Positions 36,765 through 49,240 of a stretch of DNA of 58,628 bases are shown here, piece by piece. This stretch comes from Halorubrum californiense DSM 19288 (lineage in GTDB: Archaea > Halobacteriota > Halobacteria > Halobacteriales > Haloferacaceae). Positions within the stretch are counted from its first letter, which is position 1, and each line of letters begins with the position of its first letter. Location of the stretch: assembly GCF_000336875.1 (NCBI RefSeq), contig NZ_AOJK01000064.1:1-58628 (forward strand), written 5' to 3'. The translations under genes were made by a program, and so were the position numbers. A model generated the notes under the pieces. It was not told where the DNA came from and made no database searches. It saw only the letters and a list, made by a program, of their open reading frames with translations.

Positions 36765-36780
36765 TTTAGGGCGGCCTAAA
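36765..36780. promoter_or_regulatory. DtxR/IdeR-like operator, site 1
   Basis: TTTAGGGCGGCCTAAA, a perfect TTTAGG-N4-CCTAAA palindrome ending seven bases before the ATG at 36788. A TATA-like TTTTATTC (36757-36764) abuts it, so a bound repressor would cover the space between TATA and transcript start. Confidence 0.88.
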
Positions 36781-36787
36781 CGAATGG

Positions 36788-37921
36788 ATGAATCCGCGCA
36801 TCGCCGCCGCTCGGCTCCGCGAGCGCCTGTTTCGACTTCGGGAGCGACTCCCGCGGGGAACGCTTTCGGTCGCCGGGACGGTCCTCGTCCTTGCGGTCGG
36901 CGGTGCGGTGTTGACGCGGACCCTCGACGTCGAGGCCGTTGTCTCGGCGGCGACCGCCGCCGACCCGGCGCACCTCCTCGCGGCGCTCGCCGTCTACCTC
37001 GCCTCGTGGCCGGTCCGCGGCCGGCGGTACGGCGACGTACTCGCGCCGATGGGATACCGGTCCCGCACGGCGTTCCTCACGGCGACGGTGTTCGCGAGCC
37101 AGACCGCGAACCTGATCGTCCCCGCGCGGGCCGGCGACGGCGTGCGCGCGTACCTGCTGAACGACCGCCGCGAGGTGCCGTATCCGACCGGGGTCGCGTC
37201 GCTGGCGGTCGAGCGCGCGTTCGACTTGGTCGCGCTCGGCGCGCTCGGGGGCGGCGCGCTCGCGGTCCTGCTCCTCGACGGGCAGGCCGTGGCGCCGAAC
37301 GGGTCGGAGCGGGCGGTCGCGGCCGCCGCCGCGCTCGCGCTCGCGGCCGCGTCGGTCTCCGCGGGCGGCGTCGCGGTCGCTCGGAGCGACCGCCGGTTCG
37401 GGCCCGCCCTCCGCGACCGGTTCGACGGCTCCCGGCTCTCACGGGCCGTCGACGCAGCGGTCCGGTTCGGCGCCTCGGTCCGGGTCGTCGCCGCGGACGC
37501 GGGCGCGCTCGTCCGGGTGTCGCTCGCGAGCGTCGTCGTGTGGGGGGCGGACGTCGCGACCGCGGTCCTCGTCCTCGCGGCGCTCGTCGGCGGATTCGGG
37601 GCGGCGGTCGACCCGGGGACGCTCCTCGTCGTCGGCACGCTCGCCGTCTCGGCCGGGAACCTCGCGAAGGTGTTGCCGCTCTCGCAGGGGGGAATCGGAC
37701 TGTACGAGGCGGCCTTCACCGGTATCGTCGTCGCGGCGACGCCGATCCCGGCGGAGGTCGCGCTCGCGGCCGCGGCGCTCGATCACGCGCTGAAAAACGC
37801 TGTCACGCTCGCGGGCGGCGGCCTCGTCGCGGCCGCGTTCGACCTCTCCGTGACGCGCACGCCCGACGATTCCGAGCGGGAGCGGGACACGGGCGCGACG
37901 CGGCCCGCGACGGACCGCTAA
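36788..37921 (+). CDS. Flippase-like polytopic membrane protein (UPF0104/LPG-synthase TM family)
   Basis: A 377-residue membrane protein with about eight hydrophobic segments. It belongs to the family of lysylphosphatidylglycerol synthase membrane domains and AglD-type proteins (motifs ASQTANLIVPARAGDGVRAYLL, SLAVERAFDLVAL, and late NLAKVLPLSQGGIGLYEAAF). Members are thought to move or modify lipid-linked sugars or phospholipids. Its neighbours here are glycosyltransferases, which favours a role with lipid-linked glycan. It has no soluble aminoacyltransferase domain, so it is not a full LPG synthase. Iron-box site 1 lies in its promoter; site 2 starts four bases after its stop. Confidence 0.85.
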   Translation: MNPRIAAARLRERLFRLRERLPRGTLSVAGTVLVLAVGGAVLTRTLDVEAVVSAATAADPAHLLAALAVYLASWPVRGRRYGDVLAPMGYRSRTAFLTATVFASQTANLIVPARAGDGVRAYLLNDRREVPYPTGVASLAVERAFDLVALGALGGGALAVLLLDGQAVAPNGSERAVAAAAALALAAASVSAGGVAVARSDRRFGPALRDRFDGSRLSRAVDAAVRFGASVRVVAADAGALVRVSLASVVVWGADVATAVLVLAALVGGFGAAVDPGTLLVVGTLAVSAGNLAKVLPLSQGGIGLYEAAFTGIVVAATPIPAEVALAAAALDHALKNAVTLAGGGLVAAAFDLSVTRTPDDSERERDTGATRPATDR

Positions 37922-37924
37922 ACT

Positions 37925-37940
37925 TTTAGGTTAGCCTAAA
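37925..37940. promoter_or_regulatory. DtxR/IdeR-like operator, site 2
   Basis: TTTAGGTTAGCCTAAA, four bases after the stop of the flippase-like gene and 12 bases before the next ATG. The inner 14 bases TTAGGTTAGCCTAA match the left part of the corynebacterial DtxR consensus. AACTTTTA just before it could serve as TATA. Confidence 0.9.
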
Positions 37941-37951
37941 AACGATCGCGT

Positions 37952-39133
37952 ATGAATCCGACCGCCTCCGACAGCGACGGTCCGGACGTCTGCGTGATCG
38001 TCCCGACGATACGGGAGTACGAGTGTATCCGTGCGTACGTGGCGAACGCCCGCGACCACGGCTTCGACGTCTCGCGGCTCCACTTCGTCCTCGTCACCGA
38101 GGACTTCTGCGACGTCGAGGAGATGCGAGACATGCTCGACGACCTCGGCGTCTCCGGCGAGGTGTTCGACGGCACCCGCCGCGAGGAGTGGTACGAGGCC
38201 AACGGCGTCGCGGAGTACGGCCACGTCGTCCCGGCGGCGAGCCACGCCGAGACGAGCTTCGGCCTGCTGTACATGTGGGCCCACGACGAGTACGACTACG
38301 GCGTGTTCATCGACGACGACACGCTCCCCCACGACGACGTCGACTACTTCGGCCGTCACATGGGGAACCTCGCGTTCGGCGGTTCGATCGAGCGCGTCAG
38401 TTCGGACGAGGACTGGGTCAACGTCCTCTACGACAACGCCGACGAACACGGGCTCTACCCCCGCGGATACCCCTACTCGGCGATGGACGAGACGGTCGAG
38501 ACGGACTCTGTCGCGGTCGAGCCCGGCGAGGTCGTCGCCTCGCAGGGCCTCTGGACGAACGTCCCCGACCTCGACGCGGTCCGGATCCTGATGGACGGCG
38601 ATCTGGAGGGGCAGGCGCAGACCCGCACGACCGCCGCCGACTTCGGCGAGGACTTCGTCGCCGCGCGCGGCAACTACCTCACGGTCTGCTCGATGAACCT
38701 CGCGTTCCGCCGCGAGGTGATCCCCGCGTTCTACCAGCTACCGATGGACGACAACGAGTGGGACGTGGGTCGGTTCGACGACATCTGGTCGGGGCTCTTC
38801 CTCAAGCGCGCCTGCGACGTGCTGGGCAAGCGGATCTACAACGGCGACCCGCTGTGTGAACACAACAAGGCCCCGCGCTCGACGTTCGACGACCTCGCGA
38901 ACGAGGTCGCCGGGCTGGAGCTGAACGAGCACGTCTGGGAGGTAATAGACGGGGAGGGCGACGACGCCGACTCGTACGCCGCCGTCTTCGACGCGATGGC
39001 CGACGCGCTCGCCGAGGGCGACTTCGACGAGTGGAACAACGGCGCGTTCCTCAACCACTGCGGCGAGTACATGCGCGACTGGCTCGACTGCCTCGACGCG
39101 ATCCGCCGGACGCCGGCGGTCGCGGACGACTGA
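37952..39133 (+). CDS. Glycosyltransferase of the reversibly-glycosylated-polypeptide (GT75) type
   Basis: A 393-residue cytoplasmic enzyme related to plant RGP / UDP-arabinopyranose mutase and to proteins named alpha-1,4-glucan-protein synthase. The nucleotide-sugar site is VCVIVPTIRE (13-22) and the acidic FIDDD (119-123). The family C-terminal block is clear: SMNLAFRREVIPAFYQLPM, then VGRFDDIWSGLFLKRACDVLG with D276-D277, then YNGDPLCEHNKAPRSTFDDL. It could isomerise a UDP-sugar or transfer a sugar to a carrier. It has its own iron-box promoter (site 2) and lies between a flippase-like gene and an iron-binding protein gene. Confidence 0.86.
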   Translation: MNPTASDSDGPDVCVIVPTIREYECIRAYVANARDHGFDVSRLHFVLVTEDFCDVEEMRDMLDDLGVSGEVFDGTRREEWYEANGVAEYGHVVPAASHAETSFGLLYMWAHDEYDYGVFIDDDTLPHDDVDYFGRHMGNLAFGGSIERVSSDEDWVNVLYDNADEHGLYPRGYPYSAMDETVETDSVAVEPGEVVASQGLWTNVPDLDAVRILMDGDLEGQAQTRTTAADFGEDFVAARGNYLTVCSMNLAFRREVIPAFYQLPMDDNEWDVGRFDDIWSGLFLKRACDVLGKRIYNGDPLCEHNKAPRSTFDDLANEVAGLELNEHVWEVIDGEGDDADSYAAVFDAMADALAEGDFDEWNNGAFLNHCGEYMRDWLDCLDAIRRTPAVADD

Positions 39134-39152: not shown

Positions 39153-39168
39153 TTTAGGTAAGCCTAAA
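39153..39168. promoter_or_regulatory. DtxR/IdeR-like operator, site 3
   Basis: TTTAGGTAAGCCTAAA, ending four bases before the ATG at 39173. ACTAAACG (about 39143-39150) just upstream is the likely TATA element. A repressor here would cover the transcript start of the solute-binding protein gene. Confidence 0.9.
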
Positions 39169-39172
39169 ACAC

Positions 39173-40327
39173 ATGGCGAACGACGACTTCGACGAACGAG
39201 ACGGACGCGACGTTCGACGACGGAAGTTCCTCGCGGCCGCCGGTTCGGTCGGCGTCGCGGGGATCGCCGGCTGTAACGGGACGGACGAGGGAGGCGACGG
39301 CGAGGACGGCGGCGACGGCCCCGGCGGGGCCGTGGGCCAGATCGGGTCCGGCCGCGCCGGCCGCGACGCCCCCGGCGGCACGCCGATGGCCGATATGCCG
39401 GCGCTCGAAGGCGAGCTCACCGTCTACTCCGGTCGCGGCGAGTTCCTCGTCGGCGAGCTCGTCAGCTACATCGACGACCTGTACGACGACTTCGATCTCA
39501 CCATCCGGTACAACAACTCGACCGACCTCGTGAACCAGATCGTCAACGAGGGGGAGGGGTCGCCGGCGGACGTGTTCTACTCGGTGAACGCCGGCTCGCT
39601 CGGCGCGCTCGCCGACGCGGGACGCACGCAGGCGCTCCCCGACGGCGTGGCCGAGAAGGTCCGCGGGGAGTTCCGCACCGAGCAGTGGGTCGGCACCTCC
39701 GGCCGCGCCCGGACGGTCCCGTACAACACTGAGGAGTTCTCCGAGGATGACATGCCGGACGACATCATGGCGTACCCCGAGGAGTTCGAGGGCGACCTCG
39801 GCTGGGCGCCGTCGTACGGCTCCGCGCAGGCGTTCATCACCGCGATGCGGCTGCTCGAAGGCGAGGAGGCCACCCGCGAGTGGCTGGAGGCGATGGTCGA
39901 GCGCGGCGCCGCGACGTACCCCGACGAGTTCCGCACGTGTCAAGAGATCGCCGACGGCGAGATCGACGCCGCGTTCACGAACCACTACTACATCCAGCGC
40001 GTGCTCGACGGGAACCCCGAGGCCCCGATCGCGACCTCGTTCACCGAGGGCGACGCGGGCGCGGTGTTCAACGTCGCCGGCGCCACGGTCGTCGACACGG
40101 CGTCCGACGCCGACCTCGCCGCGAACTTCGTCCGGCACCTGCTGTCGGCCGAGGCGCAGGACTACTTCGCGCGCTCCACCTTCGAGTACCCGCTGATCCC
40201 CGACGTCGAGCCGATCGGCGACCTCCCGACGATCGACGAGCTGGACGTCCCGGACATCGACCTCTCGGAGCTGTCCAACCTCGAACCGACGATCGACCTC
40301 ATGCGCGACGCCGGCGTCCAGATCTAA
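39173..40327 (+). CDS. Tat-exported lipoprotein, ferric-type ABC solute-binding protein
   Basis: Extracytoplasmic binding protein of an iron(III)-type importer. The 384 residues start with a twin-arginine signal (RRRKFLAAAGSVGVAGIAGC, lipobox Cys34), followed by a Gly/Asp-rich linker and a class 1 binding fold (LTVYSGRGEFLVGELVSYI, then RYNNSTDLVNQIVNEGEGSPADVFYS and AAFTNHYYIQRVLDG). FbpA-like proteins bind Fe3+ through paired Tyr; YYIQ at about residue 270 is a candidate. Iron-box site 3 overlaps its start, which supports iron as the ligand. The matching permease is 6 kb away (46445); no ATPase gene is in the window. Confidence 0.9.
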   Translation: MANDDFDERDGRDVRRRKFLAAAGSVGVAGIAGCNGTDEGGDGEDGGDGPGGAVGQIGSGRAGRDAPGGTPMADMPALEGELTVYSGRGEFLVGELVSYIDDLYDDFDLTIRYNNSTDLVNQIVNEGEGSPADVFYSVNAGSLGALADAGRTQALPDGVAEKVRGEFRTEQWVGTSGRARTVPYNTEEFSEDDMPDDIMAYPEEFEGDLGWAPSYGSAQAFITAMRLLEGEEATREWLEAMVERGAATYPDEFRTCQEIADGEIDAAFTNHYYIQRVLDGNPEAPIATSFTEGDAGAVFNVAGATVVDTASDADLAANFVRHLLSAEAQDYFARSTFEYPLIPDVEPIGDLPTIDELDVPDIDLSELSNLEPTIDLMRDAGVQI

Positions 40328-40376: not shown

Positions 40377-42731
40377 GTGTCACCCCTTCCACCGCGCGTC
40401 CGCCCGCGTCGGCTCGCCGTCCGCCTCCGCCGGCGGCTCGGCGCCGACCGGGTGAGCCTCGCCGCGGCGCTGGTGGCCGTCGCGGCCGGCGTCCTGACGT
40501 TCGCGATCGCCGCCACCGTCTTCTCGCACCACTCCGCGAACCACGACGAGGGCGTTTACCTCACGCAGGCCGCGCTCCTCCTCGACGGCCAGTTGGCGCT
40601 CCACGCCGGGCCCCTCGCCGACGCCGTCCACCCGTGGTTCTTCATCGAGGACGGCGGGCGCCTCTACCCGAAGTACAACCCCGTCCCGGCGGCGATGTTC
40701 GCGGTCACGATGGGCGCGTTCGGCGAGCCCCGCGTCACCCTCGCGGCGGTCGCCGCCGGCAACGCCGCCTTGGTGTACCTCCTCGGCTCGATGGTCGTCG
40801 GTCGTCGAGCCGGTCTCGCCGCGGCCGTCCTCTTCGCCACGTCGCCGATGGCGGTCGCGACCTCGTCGGCCTTCCTCCCGTACGCGCCGACGACGTTCTT
40901 CAACCTCGTCTTCGCGGTCGCGTACCTCCGGAGCGTCCGGGACCGGTCGCTCCGGGCGGCCGGCGTCGCGGGCCTCGCGATCGGGCTCGCGTTCTTCGCG
41001 CGCCCGTACACCGCGGTGCTGTTCGCCGCCCCGTTCATTCTCCACGCGCTGTGGCGGGTGGTCTCGGCCACCCGGCGGTTCGGCGCCGAGTCCGGGACGT
41101 CGACGCCGCGCGCGCTCGTGGCCGCCGGGCTTCGCGGCCTCCCGGACCCGGTCCGCCGCCACGGGCTCACGGCGCTGTTCGGGTCCCTGTTCGTCGGCGT
41201 CACGCTCGCGTACAACGTCCGAATGACCGGGTCGCCGCTCACGTTCCCCTATCAGGTGTTCGCGCCGATGGACGGTCCCGGCTTCGGCGAGCGGCGCATC
41301 CTCGGCCACTCGGTCGACTACACGCTCGGCTTGGCGCTGGAGTCGAACCGGTACGCGCTGCAGGAGATCGCGACCCGGTGGTTCGTCGCCGGCCCGCTCG
41401 GGACCGTCACCGCGCTCGTCGGCGCCGCGGTCGCGTTCCGGGGCTGGCGCGCAAGCGGCGACCCCCGCGGTCTCCTCGACGACGACCCCGACGCCGACGC
41501 GGCGACGGCCGCCGACGGCGGCGCGGCGGGGCCGTCCGGCTCGGCCGCGTTCCGCCGGCTCGCGGCGCTGCTCCTCGTCGGCGTCGCGGTCTCGGTCGTC
41601 GTCGGGAACCTCTACTTCTGGGGGACCCACAACGCGCTCGCCGACCTCTCGGATCCGACCGACGGACTCGCGTCCCTGTTCGGTCCGTTCTACCACTTCG
41701 ACCTGCTCGTCCCGCTGTCGGTGGTCGGCGGGCTCGGCATTGCCGCCGGCTATCGGGCGCTCTTCGCCGTCCGCGCGCGACTCGTCGACCGCGGCCTCTC
41801 ACGGTCGGCCGCGGGCGCCGCGCTCGCGGTCGTCGTCGCGCTCGCGGTCGCCGGCGGAGGTGTCGCCGCCGTCGACGCGGCCGCGGACCCGATAGAGCGG
41901 AACGCCGCGGTCGACGAAAAACACGAGGCGGCGTACGCGCCGTTCGACGAGACGACGTTCGAGGACGGGCTGGTGTTCATCCCCGCGCCGTACGGCGAGT
42001 GGCAGAACCACCCGTTCCAGTACCTCCGGAACGGACCGGGACTCGACGGCGACGTCGTGTACGCGCTCGACCGCGACCCGGTCGAGAACTTCGCGGTTCT
42101 CGACGCCTATCCGGACCGGACGCTGTACCGCTACGGCTACCGCGGGACCTGGACCGCGGACCCGAACGCGCACGTCTCGCCGAAGCTGGCGGCGCTGGAC
42201 CGGCGGTCCGGGTCCGCGATTGAGGCGACGACGACCGTCGGCGTGCCGGACCGCGTCGCCCGCGCGCAGGTCCGCGTCGACCCGCGCCGGGGCGCTCCGG
42301 GCGGTCCGGACCACGTCTCCAACACGGTGAGCGACCTCGGCGACTCGCTCGCCGTCGACTGGACGGTGACGCCTGAGGGGGTCCGGCTGTCCGACGCCGC
42401 GGCCGCGGGCGACGCCGACGCGGCCGAACCCATCCCCTTCGACCCCGAGGGCGACGTGGTCGCCGTGACGGTGACGCTCGTCGACCCGACGGGCGCGACG
42501 TTCACCTACCGACAGGAGGTGACGGTTCGGGTGACAGAGAGCGGGGAGCCGGGAGCCGAGGGTGACGAGGCGGGAGCCGACGCCGAGCGCGTCGAGGTCG
42601 TCTGGCCGCCCGAGCGCTCGACCTGCCGCCTCGTCACGGAGTGCGGCACCGAGGGGACGTACCTCCCCGACGACCCCGACGCCCACCCCGACTGGGTCGT
42701 CTTCGAGACGGACGCCGAGACGAACCATTAA
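40377..42731 (+). CDS. GT-C membrane glycosyltransferase (ArnT/PMT-like)
   Basis: A 784-residue integral membrane enzyme that probably transfers a sugar from a lipid-phosphate donor outside the membrane. About 11-12 hydrophobic segments fill the first 510 residues, with the acidic loop motif HHSANHDEGVYLTQAALL after the first helix, as in dolichol-phosphate-mannose protein mannosyltransferases and ArnT. The last 270 residues are a soluble external domain with beta-rich character and a Cys pair near the end (CRLVTECG). GTG start at 40377; a later GTG at 40452 is possible. It follows the iron-binding protein after 49 bases without a box of its own, so it may be co-transcribed from site 3. Confidence 0.85.
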   Translation: MSPLPPRVRPRRLAVRLRRRLGADRVSLAAALVAVAAGVLTFAIAATVFSHHSANHDEGVYLTQAALLLDGQLALHAGPLADAVHPWFFIEDGGRLYPKYNPVPAAMFAVTMGAFGEPRVTLAAVAAGNAALVYLLGSMVVGRRAGLAAAVLFATSPMAVATSSAFLPYAPTTFFNLVFAVAYLRSVRDRSLRAAGVAGLAIGLAFFARPYTAVLFAAPFILHALWRVVSATRRFGAESGTSTPRALVAAGLRGLPDPVRRHGLTALFGSLFVGVTLAYNVRMTGSPLTFPYQVFAPMDGPGFGERRILGHSVDYTLGLALESNRYALQEIATRWFVAGPLGTVTALVGAAVAFRGWRASGDPRGLLDDDPDADAATAADGGAAGPSGSAAFRRLAALLLVGVAVSVVVGNLYFWGTHNALADLSDPTDGLASLFGPFYHFDLLVPLSVVGGLGIAAGYRALFAVRARLVDRGLSRSAAGAALAVVVALAVAGGGVAAVDAAADPIERNAAVDEKHEAAYAPFDETTFEDGLVFIPAPYGEWQNHPFQYLRNGPGLDGDVVYALDRDPVENFAVLDAYPDRTLYRYGYRGTWTADPNAHVSPKLAALDRRSGSAIEATTTVGVPDRVARAQVRVDPRRGAPGGPDHVSNTVSDLGDSLAVDWTVTPEGVRLSDAAAAGDADAAEPIPFDPEGDVVAVTVTLVDPTGATFTYRQEVTVRVTESGEPGAEGDEAGADAERVEVVWPPERSTCRLVTECGTEGTYLPDDPDAHPDWVVFETDAETNH

Positions 42732-43247: not shown

Positions 43248-44063
43248 TCAGAAGCGCCGCAGTTGCTCTTCGAGACAGACGGTGACGATCGACTTCGCGA
43301 TGGCGGCGCCGCCGCCGATCGGGTCGAGTTTCGTCTCGCCGAGGCGCTCCGCGTACCGGATCGGGCGCTCGCGCACGTCGTAGCCCCGCATCAGCGGGCG
43401 GATCAGGAGTTCGGCCGAGAGGCCAGTGTTCTCGGTCCACCCGATCTCCTCGACCACGTCGCGGCGGTACGCGCGCATCCCCGTCGTGGTGTCGTGGACG
43501 CCCTCGCCCATCAGCAGGCTCGCGATCGCGGCGAACGCGTGGTTGCCGAAGCGGTTGAACGCCGGCATCGCGTCGGCGCCGTGGTAGAGCCGGTCGCCGC
43601 TCACCACGTCCGCGCCGTCGTTGATCTCGGCGAGGAACTCCGGCAGCGCCTCCATCGGGTAGGTGTCGTCGCAGTCGGTCGTGACGACCACGGGGCGGTC
43701 GGGCGTCAGGATCGCCTCGCGGACGGCGACGCCGTACCCCTGCGGCTCCTGCTCGATGACTCGCGCGCCGTGTTCGCGGGCGATCTCCGGGGTTCGGTCC
43801 GAGGAGCCGTCGACGCAGACGACTTCCGCCCTCCCGTCGGTCGCCTCGTCGATGTCCTCCAGCACCGTCGCGATGGCCTCCTCCTCGTTGTACGTCCCCA
43901 TCACGACGCTGAGGTCGTCGAAGGTGTACTCCCCGCTCTCGGCGTCCGCCGCGTTCGCGGCCCCGCCCTCGCCGTCTGCCGAGCCCGTAGCCCCGTTCTC
44001 GTCGTCCGCTGCCACGTCCACGGCGCTCGCGGACCCGTTCGTCGCGTGTGCTGAGTCGCTCAT
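43248..44063 (-). CDS. GT2 glycosyltransferase (dolichol-phosphate sugar synthase-like)
   Basis: A 271-residue enzyme expected to put a sugar from a nucleotide donor onto polyprenyl phosphate. Residues 1-48 are a disordered acidic/Ala-rich extension. The GT-A fold follows with SVVMGTYNEEEAI, VCVDGSS, the acidic D130-C-D132-D133 motif (TTDCDDTYP) and HDTTTGMRAYRRDVVEEIGW. There are no membrane helices. Its product could be the lipid-phosphate sugar used by the GT-C enzyme nearby. Its start lies 32 bases downstream of iron-box site 4. Confidence 0.9.
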   Translation of the reverse strand: MSDSAHATNGSASAVDVAADDENGATGSADGEGGAANAADAESGEYTFDDLSVVMGTYNEEEAIATVLEDIDEATDGRAEVVCVDGSSDRTPEIAREHGARVIEQEPQGYGVAVREAILTPDRPVVVTTDCDDTYPMEALPEFLAEINDGADVVSGDRLYHGADAMPAFNRFGNHAFAAIASLLMGEGVHDTTTGMRAYRRDVVEEIGWTENTGLSAELLIRPLMRGYDVRERPIRYAERLGETKLDPIGGGAAIAKSIVTVCLEEQLRRF

Positions 44064-44095: not shown

Positions 44096-44111
44096 TTTAG
44101 GTTTACCTAAA
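44096..44111. promoter_or_regulatory. DtxR/IdeR-like operator, site 4
   Basis: TTTAGGTTTACCTAAA, upstream of the minus-strand GT2 gene (ATG at 44063) and just after the stop of the GMC gene. On the minus strand a TATA-like TATTTTAGG overlaps its edge. Confidence 0.9.
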
Positions 44112-44128: not shown

Positions 44129-45787
44129 TCAGGAGCCGTCGGCGAGCCACTCGGCAACGTCGTCGCCGACGCGGAGCGCGAGCGCGGCGATGGTGAGCGT
44201 CGGGTTCATCGCGCCGCTCGTCGGGAAGACGGAGCTGGAGGCGATCCAGCAGTTATCGAGGTCGTGCGTCCGGCAGTCGGCGTCGACGACGCCGCGGTCT
44301 GGGTCGTCGCTCATCCGCGTCGTGCCCATGTGGTGGTAGGCGGGACCGGTCGCGTCCGGTCCGGCGACCCACTCGACGTCGGCACCGAGTTCCTCGAGAA
44401 TGGACACCTGAATCTCGTTGGCGCGCTCGATCGTGTCGAGCGCGCGGTCGCCGACGGTCCACTCGATCCGCGGGACCGGGTTCCCGCGGTCGTCGGTGCG
44501 GTCGTCGGCGAGCGTCACGCGGCTCTCGGCGTCGGGAAGCTGCTCGACCAGCCCGCCCATCGCGACGTGGTTCCCGTACCCGTCGCGGAGCCGCTCCGCG
44601 AGCGCGTCGCCCCAGTCGTCGCCCGTGAGGGCCATCTCCACCGGCGAGGGGCCGGCGTAATTGAAGAACTCCAGCTTGAACGGGGCCTGCGACTCGTCGG
44701 CCTCGTCGTAGAACTGGTCGCAGGCGCTGGTGTAGAAGCCGACGTGGTTCTGTCTCGTCGGCTCGTCGAGCGTGCCGCCGGCGCCCACGAACAGGTGGTC
44801 CATGAAGAACTCGCCGACGTGTCCGCTCCCGTTCGCGAGCCCGTCGGGGTACCGGTCTGACGCGGAGAGCAAGAGGAGCCGCGGCGTCTCCACGCCCCCG
44901 GCGGCGACGACGAACGCGTCCGCCTCCTGTCGGTGTCGTTCCCCGTCGGGAGTCGCGTAGACGGCCGCGGTCACCCGGTCGTCGCCGTCGTGTTCCAACT
45001 GTTCGACCGGCGCGCGGTCGATCACCGTCGCGCCCGCCGCCTCGGCGCGCTCGACGTGGACCGTCGCGTCGTACTTCGCGCCGCTCGGACAGACGGGCTG
45101 GCAGGTGCCGTAGCCGACGCAGGGCGAGCGGTCGTCGTACGGTTCCGAGTTGCGCGCGTTGGGCACGGAGTGCATGTCGATCCCGAGCGACTCGCAGGCC
45201 TCGGCGAACAGCGAGTCGCTGTAGGAGGGCTCGAACGGCGGCATCGGGTGGGGCTCCTCGCGGGGCGGCGCGTAGGGGTTGTCCGACGCGCCCGAGACGC
45301 CCAGTTCGCGCTCCGCCTCGGCGTAGTAGGGCCGCAGGTCGTCGTAGTCGATCGGCCAGTCGGGGCCGACGCCGCGCTCGCTCCCGGAGTTGAAATCCTC
45401 CTCGTGGAGCCGCATCACCATCCCCTGCCAGTGGAGCGTCGAGCCGCCGACCCCCTTCACGCGGGCGTGGTTCAGCGGGTACGTCCGGTCGCCGGCGGTC
45501 TCGTGGGCGTCGCGCGCGCCGCCCATGCCCCACACGTCGGGCCGACCGTACGACGGCCGGATCGCCCGCTCCTGCCGGGCGAGCCGATCTTCGGGGTCGA
45601 ACCGCGGCCCGGCGTCGAGGATCACCACGTCGCGGTCGCCGGCGAGCCGGTCGGCGACGAGCGCCCCGGCGGGACCCGCGCCGACGACACAGACGTCGGC
45701 GTCGGCGACGGGCGTTCGATCGATCGCCTCGTCGGCGTCCGCGTCGGCCGCCGACCGCTCGTCACCGACGCTCTCGGCGCCGCTCAC
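44129..45787 (-). CDS. GMC-family FAD dehydrogenase, gluconate-2-dehydrogenase-like large subunit
   Basis: A 552-residue flavoprotein that oxidises a sugar or sugar acid and passes electrons on. FAD-binding GAGPAG is at 36-41, and the GMC C-terminal catalytic region contains HHMGTTRM and NPTLTIAALALR. C223, C229 and C233 (SPCVGYGTCQPVCPSGAKYD) are arranged like the Fe-S ligands of some FAD glucose/gluconate dehydrogenases; a cluster is plausible but unproven. The protein has no signal peptide. The GTG at 45787 overlaps the stop of the small-subunit gene (GTGA), so the two are coupled and the large subunit is probably carried through the Tat system by its partner. Transcribed from iron-box site 5. 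Confidence 0.88.
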   Translation of the reverse strand: MSGAESVGDERSAADADADEAIDRTPVADADVCVVGAGPAGALVADRLAGDRDVVILDAGPRFDPEDRLARQERAIRPSYGRPDVWGMGGARDAHETAGDRTYPLNHARVKGVGGSTLHWQGMVMRLHEEDFNSGSERGVGPDWPIDYDDLRPYYAEAERELGVSGASDNPYAPPREEPHPMPPFEPSYSDSLFAEACESLGIDMHSVPNARNSEPYDDRSPCVGYGTCQPVCPSGAKYDATVHVERAEAAGATVIDRAPVEQLEHDGDDRVTAAVYATPDGERHRQEADAFVVAAGGVETPRLLLLSASDRYPDGLANGSGHVGEFFMDHLFVGAGGTLDEPTRQNHVGFYTSACDQFYDEADESQAPFKLEFFNYAGPSPVEMALTGDDWGDALAERLRDGYGNHVAMGGLVEQLPDAESRVTLADDRTDDRGNPVPRIEWTVGDRALDTIERANEIQVSILEELGADVEWVAGPDATGPAYHHMGTTRMSDDPDRGVVDADCRTHDLDNCWIASSSVFPTSGAMNPTLTIAALALRVGDDVAEWLADGS

Positions 45788-46329
45788 GGCGGCCCCCGCT
45801 GATAGCTCTCGGCTCCGCCCGGGTGGCCCTGCGGGTTCTCGATGCCGACGAGTTCGCCGCCGGTCGGGGAGGAGTACAGCGCGAGCAGGAGCTCGTTCAC
45901 GACGTAGTACCGGACTCGCTCCGCGGTCGTTCCGTCCGGGTTCTCCTCGGCCACGTCCGCGCCGAGCTCCCGGAGCAGTTCGTCCCGGTCGGCGGGCGAG
46001 AGGTCGGCGACCGGCGCGTCGTCCCACGACCGCGCGGCCGACTCCACCTCGGCGACCGCCGCGCGGATCCCCTCGCCGTGGGGCGACCCGTCGAGCCGGC
46101 CGTCGAGGAACGCCCCGACGAACGAGTCGATCCCGGAGACTGCGTCGGGGTACATCGTCTCCGCGACCGCGGTCATCGCCGTCCGGACCGCCTCGTCGTC
46201 GGGGAGTTCCTCACCGTCTCCCGGTCGGCCGCGCCGCTCGTCGGTCGTCCGACGGACGCCGAGCGCGACGCCGCCGGTCGCGCCGAGCGCGGCCAGCGCG
46301 GCCGTCGCGTCGCGTCGCGTCAGTTCCAT
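45784..46329 (-). CDS. Gluconate 2-dehydrogenase subunit 3-like protein with Tat signal
   Basis: Small subunit (181 residues) of the dehydrogenase complex. It begins with a twin-arginine signal (MELTRRDATAALAALGATGG) that should guide the folded complex across the membrane. The mature part is helical and matches the subunit 3 family (VAETMYPDAVSGIDSFVGAFLDG, then YVVNELLLALYSSPTGGELVGIENPQG). No cytochrome subunit follows. The ATG at 46329 lies eight bases from iron-box site 5, with a TATA-like ATATATGAA about 27 bases upstream on this strand. Confidence 0.88.
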   Translation of the reverse strand: MELTRRDATAALAALGATGGVALGVRRTTDERRGRPGDGEELPDDEAVRTAMTAVAETMYPDAVSGIDSFVGAFLDGRLDGSPHGEGIRAAVAEVESAARSWDDAPVADLSPADRDELLRELGADVAEENPDGTTAERVRYYVVNELLLALYSSPTGGELVGIENPQGHPGGAESYQRGPP

Positions 46330-46336
46330 GGAAGAG

Positions 46337-46352
46337 TTTAGGTGGCCCTAAA
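46337..46352. promoter_or_regulatory. DtxR/IdeR-like operator, site 5
   Basis: TTTAGGTGGCCCTAAA, seven bases before the minus-strand ATG at 46329 and 92 bases before the plus-strand permease ATG at 46445. It lies between the TATA element and start of the dehydrogenase operon and could also affect the permease. Confidence 0.9.
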
Positions 46353-46444: not shown

Positions 46445-48055
46445 ATGTCTCTGCGAACCCGGATCCGCGACCGACTGACCGACGGCGACGACAGGCTCCC
46501 GATCGGGCTCACGCTGCTGTGCGCGGCGATCGCCGCCACCCTCGTGTTCCCGCTCGCGTGGCTCGTCATCGAGGCGGTCGCCGTCGAGCGCGAGCGCGCG
46601 CTCGGACTCCTCTTCAGCGCCGGGACCGCCGACGTACTCGTCAACAGCCTCCTCCTGATGGCTGGCGTCACCGGCTTCTCGATCGCGATCGGCGTGCCCC
46701 TCGCGTACCTCACGGCACGGACAGACCTCCCGTTCCGCCGCTTCTGGTCGGTCGCGGTCGCCCTCCCGCTCGTCGTGCCGAGCTACGTCGGCGCCTTCTC
46801 GTTCGTCTCCGCGTTCGGGCCGCAGGGGGAGTTCCACGAGGTGCTCGCGCCGCTCGGCGTCGAGCGCGTCCCCGAGATATCCGGGCTCTGGGGCTCGATC
46901 CTCGTCATCACGCTGTACACCTACCCGTACGTCTACCTGACGACTCGGGCCGCGCTGCTGTCGTTCGACACGACGCTTTTGGAGGCCGCGCGGACGCTGA
47001 ACCACGGCCGACTCGCGGCGTTCCGCCGGGTGACGCTCCCGACGATCCGGCCCGCGATCGCCGCGGGCTCGCTGCTCGCGGCGCTGTACGCGGTCTCGGA
47101 CTTCGGCACCCCGTCGATCATGCGACTCCCGGTGTTCACCCGGCAGATCTACGTCGAGTACAACGCGTTCGGGCGCGACTACGCCGCGCTGCTCTCCCTC
47201 CAACTGCTCGTCGTGGTGGTCCTCGTGCTCACTCTGGAGTGGGCGGTCCGCTCGGACCGGGAGACGAGCGGCGACGACGCGGGACAGACCGAGGACCGGG
47301 TGTCGCTCGGGCGGTTGCGCTGGCCGGCGACGCTACTCCCCGCCGGCGTGTCCGCGTTCGCGCTGCTGGTGCCGCTGTGGATCCTCGGGCTGTGGCTGGT
47401 CAACTCGGAGGCGGGGCGTCGCCCCTCGCTCGCGTTCGAGCCGATACAGGTGCTCAACTCGGTGTCGGTCTCGGCGGCCGCCGCGGTCGTCGCCGCGCTC
47501 GCCGCCATTCCCATCGCGTACTTCGCCGCGAACCACGACTCGCCGCTCGCGGTCGTGTTCGAGCGGGCGACGTACGTCGGCTTCGCGGTGCCCGGCATCG
47601 TGTTGGCGCTCGCGCTGGTGTACTTCGGCTCCGGGTACGCGCCGTGGATCTACCAGACGCTGCCGCTTTTGATCTTCGCGTACGTCGTCCGGTTCCTCCC
47701 GCAGGCGGTCGGCTCCACCCGGACGTCGATCCTTCAGGTCGACCGCCGGCTCGTCGAGGCCGGACGCACGCTCGGCGAGTCGCCGACCGGCGCGTTCCGC
47801 CGCGTGACGTTCCCGCTCACCCGGTCCGGGATCGTCGCCGGGGCCGCGCTCGTGTTCCTCACGACGATGAAGGAACTGCCCGTCACCCTCGTCCTGCGTC
47901 CGTCCGGCTTCGACACGATCGTCACCCAGATCTGGCGCGCGCAGTCGACCGCGCTCTACCAGTACGCGGTCGTCCCGACGCTCATCCTCCTCGTCATCTC
48001 CGGGCTCTCGATGGTCGTCATCCTCACGCAGGAGGGCGGCGAAGAGGGGCTGTGA
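46445..48055 (+). CDS. Iron(III)-type ABC transporter permease (FbpB-like, two fused domains)
   Basis: Membrane part of a ferric importer: 536 residues with about 12 helices in two homologous halves. Each half carries the ATPase-contact (EAA) loop: LEAARTLNHGRLAAFRRVTLP in the first, and VEAGRTLGESPTGAFRRVTFP in the second. This fused form is typical for FbpB/ThiP permeases. It should pair with the binding protein at 39173. No ABC ATPase lies in the window, so the energising subunit must be encoded elsewhere. No clear TATA or iron box of its own directly before the ATG; site 5 is 92 bases upstream. The stop codon is part of a 38-base duplication. Confidence 0.92.
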   Translation: MSLRTRIRDRLTDGDDRLPIGLTLLCAAIAATLVFPLAWLVIEAVAVERERALGLLFSAGTADVLVNSLLLMAGVTGFSIAIGVPLAYLTARTDLPFRRFWSVAVALPLVVPSYVGAFSFVSAFGPQGEFHEVLAPLGVERVPEISGLWGSILVITLYTYPYVYLTTRAALLSFDTTLLEAARTLNHGRLAAFRRVTLPTIRPAIAAGSLLAALYAVSDFGTPSIMRLPVFTRQIYVEYNAFGRDYAALLSLQLLVVVVLVLTLEWAVRSDRETSGDDAGQTEDRVSLGRLRWPATLLPAGVSAFALLVPLWILGLWLVNSEAGRRPSLAFEPIQVLNSVSVSAAAAVVAALAAIPIAYFAANHDSPLAVVFERATYVGFAVPGIVLALALVYFGSGYAPWIYQTLPLLIFAYVVRFLPQAVGSTRTSILQVDRRLVEAGRTLGESPTGAFRRVTFPLTRSGIVAGAALVFLTTMKELPVTLVLRPSGFDTIVTQIWRAQSTALYQYAVVPTLILLVISGLSMVVILTQEGGEEGL

Positions 48056-48160: not shown

Positions 48161-49240
48161 TTAGTCCGCCGTGGACCGCGAGTCGGTCCGCCGCGTCACG
48201 CGGAGCGAGGTGATTGTCGTGTACAGCACCGCGGCGGCGACGACGACCGCCGCGCCGATGACGAGCACCAGCCCGAGCAGTTCGAGCGTCGAGTTGCCCA
48301 GGTACGAGCCGACCTCGCCGATACCCACGGCGATGGAGCCGACCAGCAGCATCCCGCCGAAGTACACCTTGATCTCGTCGGAGTCGACGACGGCGGTCGC
48401 GGCGGAGCCGACGCGCGCGCCGAGCGCGCTGCCGAACAGCAGCGGCGCGACGATGCCGAGGTTGACGCCGCCGCCCTGGCCGTAGAGGTAGCTCCCGAGG
48501 CCGCCCGAGAAGACGATCTCGAACAGGTCGGTGCCGACGGCGACGGGCACGGGGACGCCGATCGCGTAGATCATCGCGGGCATCCGGATGAAGCCGCCGC
48601 CGACGCCGAGGAACCCGGACAGGACGCCGGTCGCGAAGGCGACGGCCGTGATCACCCACGCGGACACGCGGACGTCGCCGCGGAGCGTCACCATCGGCGG
48701 GATCCGAACGGTCCGCTGGATCGTCTTCGCGATCTCCGGGATCTCGTACTCGTCGAGGTCCTTGTCGGCCGCCTCGTGGTCGACGCCGCCGCCCCCGTCG
48801 CCCGTCAGCGCGTCGCGGGTGACCATCGCGCCGACGCCGCCGAGCAGGACGACGTAGGCGACGCTGATGACGCCGCCGGCGAGCCCCATCGATTCGAGGT
48901 AGTAGACGCTCGCGCGCCCGGCCTCGATGCCGATCGTCGTCCCCGTGATCATGATCACGCCGAGCTTGTAGTCGACCTGCCCGAGGTCGTGGTGTTTCAG
49001 GGTCGCGATGACCGCCGTCCCGAAGACGAACGCCATCCCGCTGCCGACCGCCACGGGAGCCGGGTAGTCCAACATGAGCAGGGCCGGCGTGACGAGGAAC
49101 GACCCGCCCATGCCGAAGAACCCGAACAGGACCCCGACGACGAGGCCGAACCCGACGAACAGCGCGAGCATCTCGGGGCTCGTGTCCAGCACGCCGAGCC
49201 CGGCGAGGGCGCCGACGAGGCTATCGAGCACTCGAGTCAC
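48161..49240 (-). CDS. TauE/SafE-family anion exporter
   Basis: A 359-residue membrane protein with about eight to nine helices, in two related halves (VGFGLVVGVLFGFFGMGGSFLVTPALLML and FATGVLSGFLGVGGGFIRMPAMIY, both with the family glycine pattern). The family exports or imports sulfite, sulfoacetate or related anions. A hydrophilic loop of about 50 residues lies in the middle. GTG start at 49240, overlapping the small upstream gene by 20 bases. The sulfur genes that follow from 50.5 kb fit a role in sulfur-anion handling. Confidence 0.9.
   Translation of the reverse strand: MTRVLDSLVGALAGLGVLDTSPEMLALFVGFGLVVGVLFGFFGMGGSFLVTPALLMLDYPAPVAVGSGMAFVFGTAVIATLKHHDLGQVDYKLGVIMITGTTIGIEAGRASVYYLESMGLAGGVISVAYVVLLGGVGAMVTRDALTGDGGGGVDHEAADKDLDEYEIPEIAKTIQRTVRIPPMVTLRGDVRVSAWVITAVAFATGVLSGFLGVGGGFIRMPAMIYAIGVPVPVAVGTDLFEIVFSGGLGSYLYGQGGGVNLGIVAPLLFGSALGARVGSAATAVVDSDEIKVYFGGMLLVGSIAVGIGEVGSYLGNSTLELLGLVLVIGAAVVVAAAVLYTTITSLRVTRRTDSRSTAD

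Follow-up and report, generated by a model that had tools for sequence, protein, structure and literature searches.

An iron-box module linking a predicted exported GMC dehydrogenase to a ferric-iron importer and glycan enzymes in haloarchaea

Introduction

Why would a dehydrogenase of the sugar-oxidising kind be placed under an iron box? The question is raised by a 58,628-nucleotide stretch of the Halorubrum californiense DSM 19288 genome (contig NZ_AOJK01000064.1; "the window" below means this whole stretch), in which two adjacent genes encode the large (alpha) and small (gamma) subunits of a GMC-type flavin adenine dinucleotide (FAD) dehydrogenase. They lie next to a TTTAGGN4CCTAAA palindrome, which we take to be the haloarchaeal DtxR/Idr box. 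A preliminary description had proposed an iron-controlled pair exported by the twin-arginine translocation (Tat) pathway, with three cysteines that could hold an iron-sulphur cluster and a role in reducing ferric iron or making an acid chelator. It overlooked the linked iron transporter and glycan module. What is new here is this iron-box module, together with an alpha-gamma enzyme for which no beta (cytochrome) subunit was found; literature searches, not all of them aimed at the module, returned no description of an iron-box module combining an Fe(III) importer with glycan enzymes. Our tentative answer, which we hold to be quite possible but short of probable, is that alpha-gamma is an exported sugar dehydrogenase working without beta, whose oxidised product aids Fe(III) capture.

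Results

A GMC dehydrogenase pair with three conserved cysteines

The start of alpha and the end of gamma overlap by four bases (GTGA). Alpha scored above the Pfam cut-offs for GMC_oxred_N and GMC_oxred_C, and gamma above that for Gluconate_2-dh3 (PF13618). A weak Fer4_7 match in alpha, below its cut-off, ends at residue 237 and covers the cysteines, which were confirmed at C223, C229 and C233. No transmembrane segment was found in either subunit with a simple hydropathy scan. The N-terminus of gamma reads MELTRRDATAALAALG, and its twin arginines are invariant in an alignment of 30 sequences. Coordinates, Pfam matches and N-terminus thus agree with the pair as first described, a signal-less large subunit and a small one bearing a Tat signal. 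As gamma contains no cysteine, it has no lipobox in H. californiense; some orthologues have added one (LAGC, LSGC). In one gamma orthologue (locus L061) the N-terminus changes to LSLIHIS, which presumably reflects sequencing-adapter read-through rather than biology.

The closest solved relatives of alpha were the alpha subunit of BcGDH, the FAD-dependent glucose dehydrogenase of Burkholderia cepacia (E 5e-90), and the large subunit of fructose dehydrogenase (FDH). The same two enzymes made up all nine best Foldseek matches of the alpha model, FDH being the best; the model is of modest quality (mean predicted local distance difference test score, pLDDT, of 65, and below 50 in the Cys loop). By alignment, C223, C229 and C233 correspond to Cys212, Cys218 and Cys222 of BcGDH, reported to be 3Fe-4S ligands, while Cys213 forms a disulphide bond with gamma (PMC6719666). 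The iron-sulphur site proposed earlier therefore has its equivalent in a solved structure, and a 3Fe-4S cluster is predicted in alpha from these aligned residues. His119 occupies the position of the histidine that binds FAD covalently in BcGDH (His105), and His485 and Asn528 are the catalytic pair by alignment (BcGDH His476 and Asn519). All six residues were invariant in 80/80 orthologues, taken as the best 80 of 202 relatives. Two positions differ from BcGDH: V224 stands at Cys213 which, with a gamma subunit free of cysteine, means that no alpha-gamma inter-subunit disulphide is expected; and Tyr484 stands at Asn475, a proposed glucose contact, which weakens the inference of glucose as the substrate.

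For gamma, neither a plain Foldseek search with the model (mean pLDDT 77; no match at E <=0.001) nor a sequence profile run against the PDB sequences (no credible relative) was informative. A second-look aligner placed first chain B of 9jqa, a fructose dehydrogenase entry in which we take this chain to be the small subunit, with Z 6.2 and a root mean square deviation of 3.2 over 93 residues; this Z is middling for helical proteins and can by itself reflect no more than a common arrangement, and the next match reached only Z 3.4. Judged on its sequences, alpha-gamma is a pair with the GMC catalytic subunit, three-cysteine motif and small Tat subunit of the FAD-dependent glucose dehydrogenase and FDH complexes. 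Enzyme type, iron-sulphur cluster and carrier-mediated Tat export are all already known for the family. In BcGDH, gamma is described as a Tat hitchhiker required for alpha secretion (PMC6719666), and the carrier-mediated co-export suggested for the present pair would follow by analogy.

A conserved iron box at the gamma promoter

Five perfect TTTAGGN4CCTAAA sites are present in the window (Table 1). When up to two mismatches were allowed, shuffled windows held a mean of 0.08 sites, and 0/100 shuffles reached five. Site 5 lies between a TATA-like element, picked by eye, and the gamma start, the promoter reading, 5' to 3', TATATGAA, box TTTAGGGCCACCTAAA, seven bases and ATG. A repressor bound there would occupy the stretch from the TATA-like element to the point where a leaderless transcript would begin, transcripts of this type being called typical of haloarchaea (PMC12852389). 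The operon start had been placed on site 5: this stands for gamma, but the box is not the pair's own, as it also serves the divergent permease. Genome-wide, eight perfect boxes and 12 places with at most one mismatch were counted, against 1 for the reversed control pattern. Besides the five of the window, the perfect boxes comprised two in a Peripla_BP_2/FecCD/ABC region and one before a TOBE ATPase of the ATP-binding cassette (ABC) type.

The box was found upstream of gamma in 79 of the 80 orthologous loci, the nearest named relatives being Halorubrum: it was perfect in 39, with one mismatch in 35 and two in 5. In 78 loci it stands 6-10 nt before the called gamma start; at L040 the called start puts it 83 nt away, and L053 is cut by the contig end. 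A box also separates alpha from the downstream glycosyltransferase in 78/78 loci having that gene, and all 62 permeases divergent from gamma share gamma's box. Chance occurrence is ruled out by the shuffles, the conservation across loci and the genome-wide counts. A palindromic box at the core promoter is expected of a DtxR/Idr regulon, and the box is predicted to be a repressor site here; iron control, as first proposed, is supported to the extent that conservation of a box allows.

To these loci were added 16 fetched as divergent or second copies, 5 of them boxed and 11 (13 alpha copies) box-less, all with the Cys motif. The preliminary description had staked its iron-sulphur site on conservation of the cysteines, and these were retained not only in the 80 orthologues but in 91/91 boxed and 15/15 box-less alpha rows of the wider set (His119: 89/91 and 13/15; Asn528: 91/91 and 12/15). 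Since box-less paralogues keep the three cysteines, the motif is a family trait as sampled, and its being a feature of iron regulation is ruled out. In the alpha tree (85 of 106 rows, quick method, root unknown), boxed and box-less rows, 69 versus 15, split along one branch with an SH-aLRT support of 100, i.e. a single change, and 0/500 shuffles of the box label were as low. L053 was excluded from this label count, yet counted as boxed in the wider residue set. At ten alpha positions, boxed rows are at least 95% fixed for a residue that none of the 15 box-less rows has, so that the two groups may differ in substrate.

Several copies have a particular setting. One Halorubrum genome carries a second alpha, boxed and in its own module copy (L137, G145:C1:16500-22500). 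At L134 (G073:C11:379000-389000), three box-less alpha genes stand in tandem behind one gamma, near an HFX_2341-like regulator, a type also found near L132 and L133. On the Halarchaeum plasmid pCBA1220-01 (L151), a box-less alpha-gamma pair lies beside genes for an alpha-L-arabinofuranosidase, a sugar ABC transporter, Gfo6 and a GntP permease. Arabinose and xylose genes also surround this Halarchaeum paralogue, for which extracellular pentose oxidation is possible; the context fits oxidation of free sugars by alphas that are not on the boxed branch. No single pathway emerged from the genes beside box-less paralogues (ten neighbours, at 7 of the 11 loci).

A ferric-iron importer and glycan enzymes under the same box

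The features of the window are listed in Table 1.

Table 1. The dehydrogenase pair, iron boxes and module neighbours in the window
Feature	Position	Strand	Remarks
Alpha, GMC-type FAD dehydrogenase large subunit	44129..45787	-	GTG start, 552 aa, no signal peptide seen
Gamma, Gluconate_2-dh3 small subunit	45784..46329	-	181 aa, Tat-type signal MELTRRDATAALAALG
Iron box site 5, TTTAGGTGGCCCTAAA	46337..46352	.	7 nt upstream of gamma ATG; common to divergent permease
Iron box site 4	44096..44111	.	Between alpha and glycosyltransferase, directly behind alpha; belongs to glycosyltransferase
Iron box site 3	39153..39168	.	Upstream of substrate-binding protein
Iron box site 2	37925..37940	.	Upstream of RGP-like gene
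Iron box site 1	36765..36780	.	Upstream of flippase-like gene
Glycosyltransferase family 2 (GT2)	43248..44063	-	Above cut-off for NCBIfam NF041391, dolichyl-phosphate hexose transferase
Two-domain ABC permease	46445..48055	+	Divergent from gamma
FbpA-type ferric-iron binding protein	39173..40327	+	Tat-like RRRKFL signal and lipobox, read by eye
PMT_2/DUF7846 membrane glycosyltransferase (GT39-like; PMT)	40377..42731	+	Behind substrate-binding protein
Reversibly glycosylated polypeptide (RGP)-like, UDP-arabinopyranose mutase relative	37952..39133	+	Own box, site 2
UPF0104 / LPG_synthase_TM flippase-like membrane protein	36788..37921	+	Own box, site 1

GT2 is present in 78/80 loci. In the 68 full-length loci, within the 6 kb flanks that restrict these counts, GT2 was found in 66, the permease in 67, PMT in 60, the substrate-binding protein in 58, RGP in 45, UPF0104 in 11 and the ATPase in 4. 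The substrate-binding protein matched ferric-binding proteins with E 2e-60, and homologues of the permease (54-56% identity) are annotated 'iron ABC transporter permease' in two plasmid modules. The boxed TOBE ATPase lies elsewhere in the genome (L141:3466-4704). Its homologues (57-65% identity) are part of the module in Halobaculum, Salarchaeum and three other genomes, and Halobaculum sp. CBA1158 and Salarchaeum have the substrate-binding protein, permease and ATPase as a single block; the boxed ATPase therefore probably powers the transporter of the window. A ferric-binding protein, a permease and an ATPase are thus on hand, and by sequence the system is an Fbp-type Fe(III) ABC transporter.

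The UPF0104 gene is the least certain module member, being found in 12/80 loci with flanks that often end before it. The flippase proposal for this family reportedly comes from Makarova and co-workers. HVO_1859 is an example of the UPF0104 proteins proposed as glycosylation flippases (PMC5898192), and is reported to rise 11.6-fold in iron-starved Haloferax volcanii (PMC11349517); it parallels the gene of the window at the family level only. HVO_1863 was considered as well and is unrelated. A TauE/SafE permease gene adjoining the module (48161-49240, minus strand) occurs in only 9/80 loci and is therefore probably outside it.

Co-occurrence of the dehydrogenase with glycan genes

An alpha match was found in 136/148 genomes of the family. 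For co-occurrence, all 12 alpha-negative genomes (three of which, G012, G072 and G113, are 56-85% complete) were compared with 14 hand-chosen positives of the 136. RGP was present in 14/14 alpha-positive versus 2/12 alpha-negative genomes, and so was PMT (Fisher p 1.2e-5); the two exceptions were G066 and G077. GT2 gave the same split when at least 66% identity was demanded, distant GT2 paralogues (30-38% identity) being widespread. A PMT match was obtained on eight of 72,556 plasmids, and these were the same eight that hold alpha at 60% identity or more. On Salarchaeum pJOR178 the genes are all co-directional, in the order RGP, substrate-binding protein, iron permease, ATPase, GT39, gamma, alpha and dolichyl-phosphate hexose transferase, and four perfect boxes accompany them. 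The gene set of Halobaculum pCBA1158-1 matches this one apart from a Gfo6 gene inserted behind alpha and an inverted GT2, and its four boxes are weaker (one or two mismatches). Genes inserted behind alpha (eight genes at eight loci, not including L103) vary and share no partner: two are CorA-like, one encodes an M48 peptidase, one a PQQ-type beta-propeller, one a Gfo/Idh protein, and three are uninformative. The beta-propeller is the gene that directly follows alpha in Halobaculum lipolyticum (L149:12576-13784).

These neighbourhoods bear on a rival explanation, in which a small free sugar, environmental or secreted, is oxidised (an aldose to an aldonate, or to a keto-sugar), the acid dissolves or chelates Fe(III) for import by FbpABC, and the glycan genes do a separate job under the same control. 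Characterised relatives of alpha-gamma oxidise small free sugars. BcGDH is one of them (PMC6719666), and in Collimonas mineral weathering is driven by the gluconic acid of an alpha-gamma-cytochrome GMC enzyme, which is described as the main enzyme of acidification there (PMC12542777). The pentose-gene setting of the box-less Halarchaeum pair and the Gfo6 gene of the Halobaculum module go in the same direction. But oxidation of a free sugar leaves unexplained the co-occurrence with RGP, PMT and the dolichyl-phosphate hexose transferase, and the ten positions that set boxed from box-less alphas suggest a different substrate. We regard this explanation as conceivable but doubtful.

Where the electrons could go

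Cytochrome_CBB3 (PF13442) had no match at E 0.01 in the H. californiense genome (95.6% complete), other cytochrome families not having been searched; as a control, the same profile matched in 7/14 genomes. Nor is a cytochrome annotated in six plasmid regions around alpha, the gene tables of which are incomplete. The cytochrome partner that was to be looked for elsewhere in the genome was thus not recovered with this profile and, no beta being found, we class alpha-gamma as a variant without beta and not as a full alpha-beta-gamma complex. Seven copper-protein domain matches were obtained in the genome, none linked to alpha-gamma.

A surface 3Fe-4S exit site, expected by homology, the lack of a dedicated cytochrome by PF13442 and the conserved box would all suit the suggestion of the preliminary description that the enzyme reduces extracellular Fe(III) with electrons from its sugar. 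We find such a ferric reductase very improbable. The linked transporter is of the FbpA type and should carry Fe(III); the Pfam matches of the two subunits include no ferric-reductase (FRE/flavin-reductase) or multi-haem domain; and BcGDH gamma-alpha without its cytochrome is reported to have nearly no activity with hexaammineruthenium(III), unlike with phenazine methosulphate-dichlorophenolindophenol (PMC5979317), which argues by analogy only.

Alternatively, at times when iron-rich complexes are in short supply, the respiratory chain could receive electrons directly from an external sugar. In iron-starved Hfx. volcanii, 9/11 Nuo subunits are reported to fall (PMC11349517), and the copper-protein matches could include an acceptor. 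But what is conserved around alpha-gamma is an Fe(III) importer with glycan enzymes, and no recurring respiratory gene was seen in the neighbourhoods examined. Such iron-sparing respiration is in our view quite unlikely.

Discussion

Our preferred reading, an exported alpha-gamma sugar dehydrogenase in the service of Fe(III) capture, starts from what the sequences contain: the subunit make-up, the cluster and catalytic residues, the Tat motif, the conserved box and the linkage to Fe(III)-transporter and glycan genes. From these we infer the following course. An enzyme of the FAD-glucose/fructose dehydrogenase kind would be synthesised on iron starvation, once a DtxR/Idr-type repressor leaves the promoter box. 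It would fold in the cytoplasm with its FAD and 3Fe-4S cluster, and would then cross the membrane on gamma's Tat signal. Outside the cell it would oxidise a sugar built or displayed by the co-regulated glycan enzymes, and the resulting acid or keto groups would help to retain Fe(III) at the surface, within reach of the FbpA-type lipoprotein and the ABC transporter that it serves. The 3Fe-4S cluster would be the exit for electrons, with e.g. a quinone or halocyanin as acceptor in place of a dedicated cytochrome c.

Placed by its box in a putative common regulon with an Fe(III) importer, the dehydrogenase would most simply serve iron capture through its product. Given the linked glycan genes, a displayed or carrier-linked sugar would be the likelier substrate. 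A more specific form of the proposal is that a surface glycan or glycolipid is built only under iron starvation and oxidised in place, giving a cell-bound Fe(III) ligand that feeds the FbpA lipoprotein. We consider this form rather unlikely; if true, the oxidised surface glycan would be a sugar-based alternative to soluble siderophores.

Several points weigh against the proposal. A displayed glycan would be a new kind of substrate, the characterised relatives acting on small free sugars. Three iron atoms should be needed per enzyme, an unexpected demand in a protein made on iron starvation. Shared control and gene proximity are no proof of a single pathway, and the components do come apart: two genomes (G066, locus L146, and G077, locus L147) have RGP, substrate-binding protein, permease, ATPase, PMT, GT2 and boxes with alpha-gamma undetected, so that the module core can exist without the dehydrogenase. 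The FbpA-like protein, present in 14/14 alpha-positive genomes, is also found in 7/12 alpha-negative ones, and two further Halobaculum regions have no GT2 listed in the vicinity of alpha. Neither GMC nor gluconate has a match in the main text of the proteome study on iron-starved Hfx. volcanii (PMC11349517). As for Collimonas, its GMC enzyme makes gluconic acid and the small subunit is reported to be about twofold higher without Fe and Mg, but no difference in gluconic acid itself was seen between Fe/Mg-free and complete medium (PMC12542777).

If the module is one pathway, it predicts a haloarchaeal route of iron acquisition that can be tested in genetically tractable species, as well as a version of the glucose-sensor enzyme that works without a cytochrome subunit.

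Compared with known systems, the pair resembles BcGDH (PDB 6a2u, 8grj) in its GMC catalytic subunit, the equivalent Cys, His and Asn positions and the small subunit with a Tat signal. It differs by the iron box, the lack of an inter-subunit disulphide and the absence, in the PF13442 search, of a tri-haem cytochrome c subunit. Gluconobacter FDH (PDB 7w2j, 9jqa) provides the best structural matches of both the alpha and gamma models; that enzyme has a cytochrome subunit, and the title of 9jqa names haem 1c. The Collimonas GMC oxidoreductase likewise combines a large subunit with a small Tat-signal subunit, and there sugar oxidation is linked to nutrient mobilisation; unlike the pair of the window, it is bacterial, comes with a cytochrome subunit and is not known to be co-regulated with genes for an Fbp transporter and for glycan synthesis. 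Finally, the transporter has the parts of Fbp-type Fe(III) ABC transporters, a ferric-binding protein, a two-domain permease and a TOBE ATPase with its own box, but its genes are here interleaved with those of glycosyltransferases and a GMC dehydrogenase.

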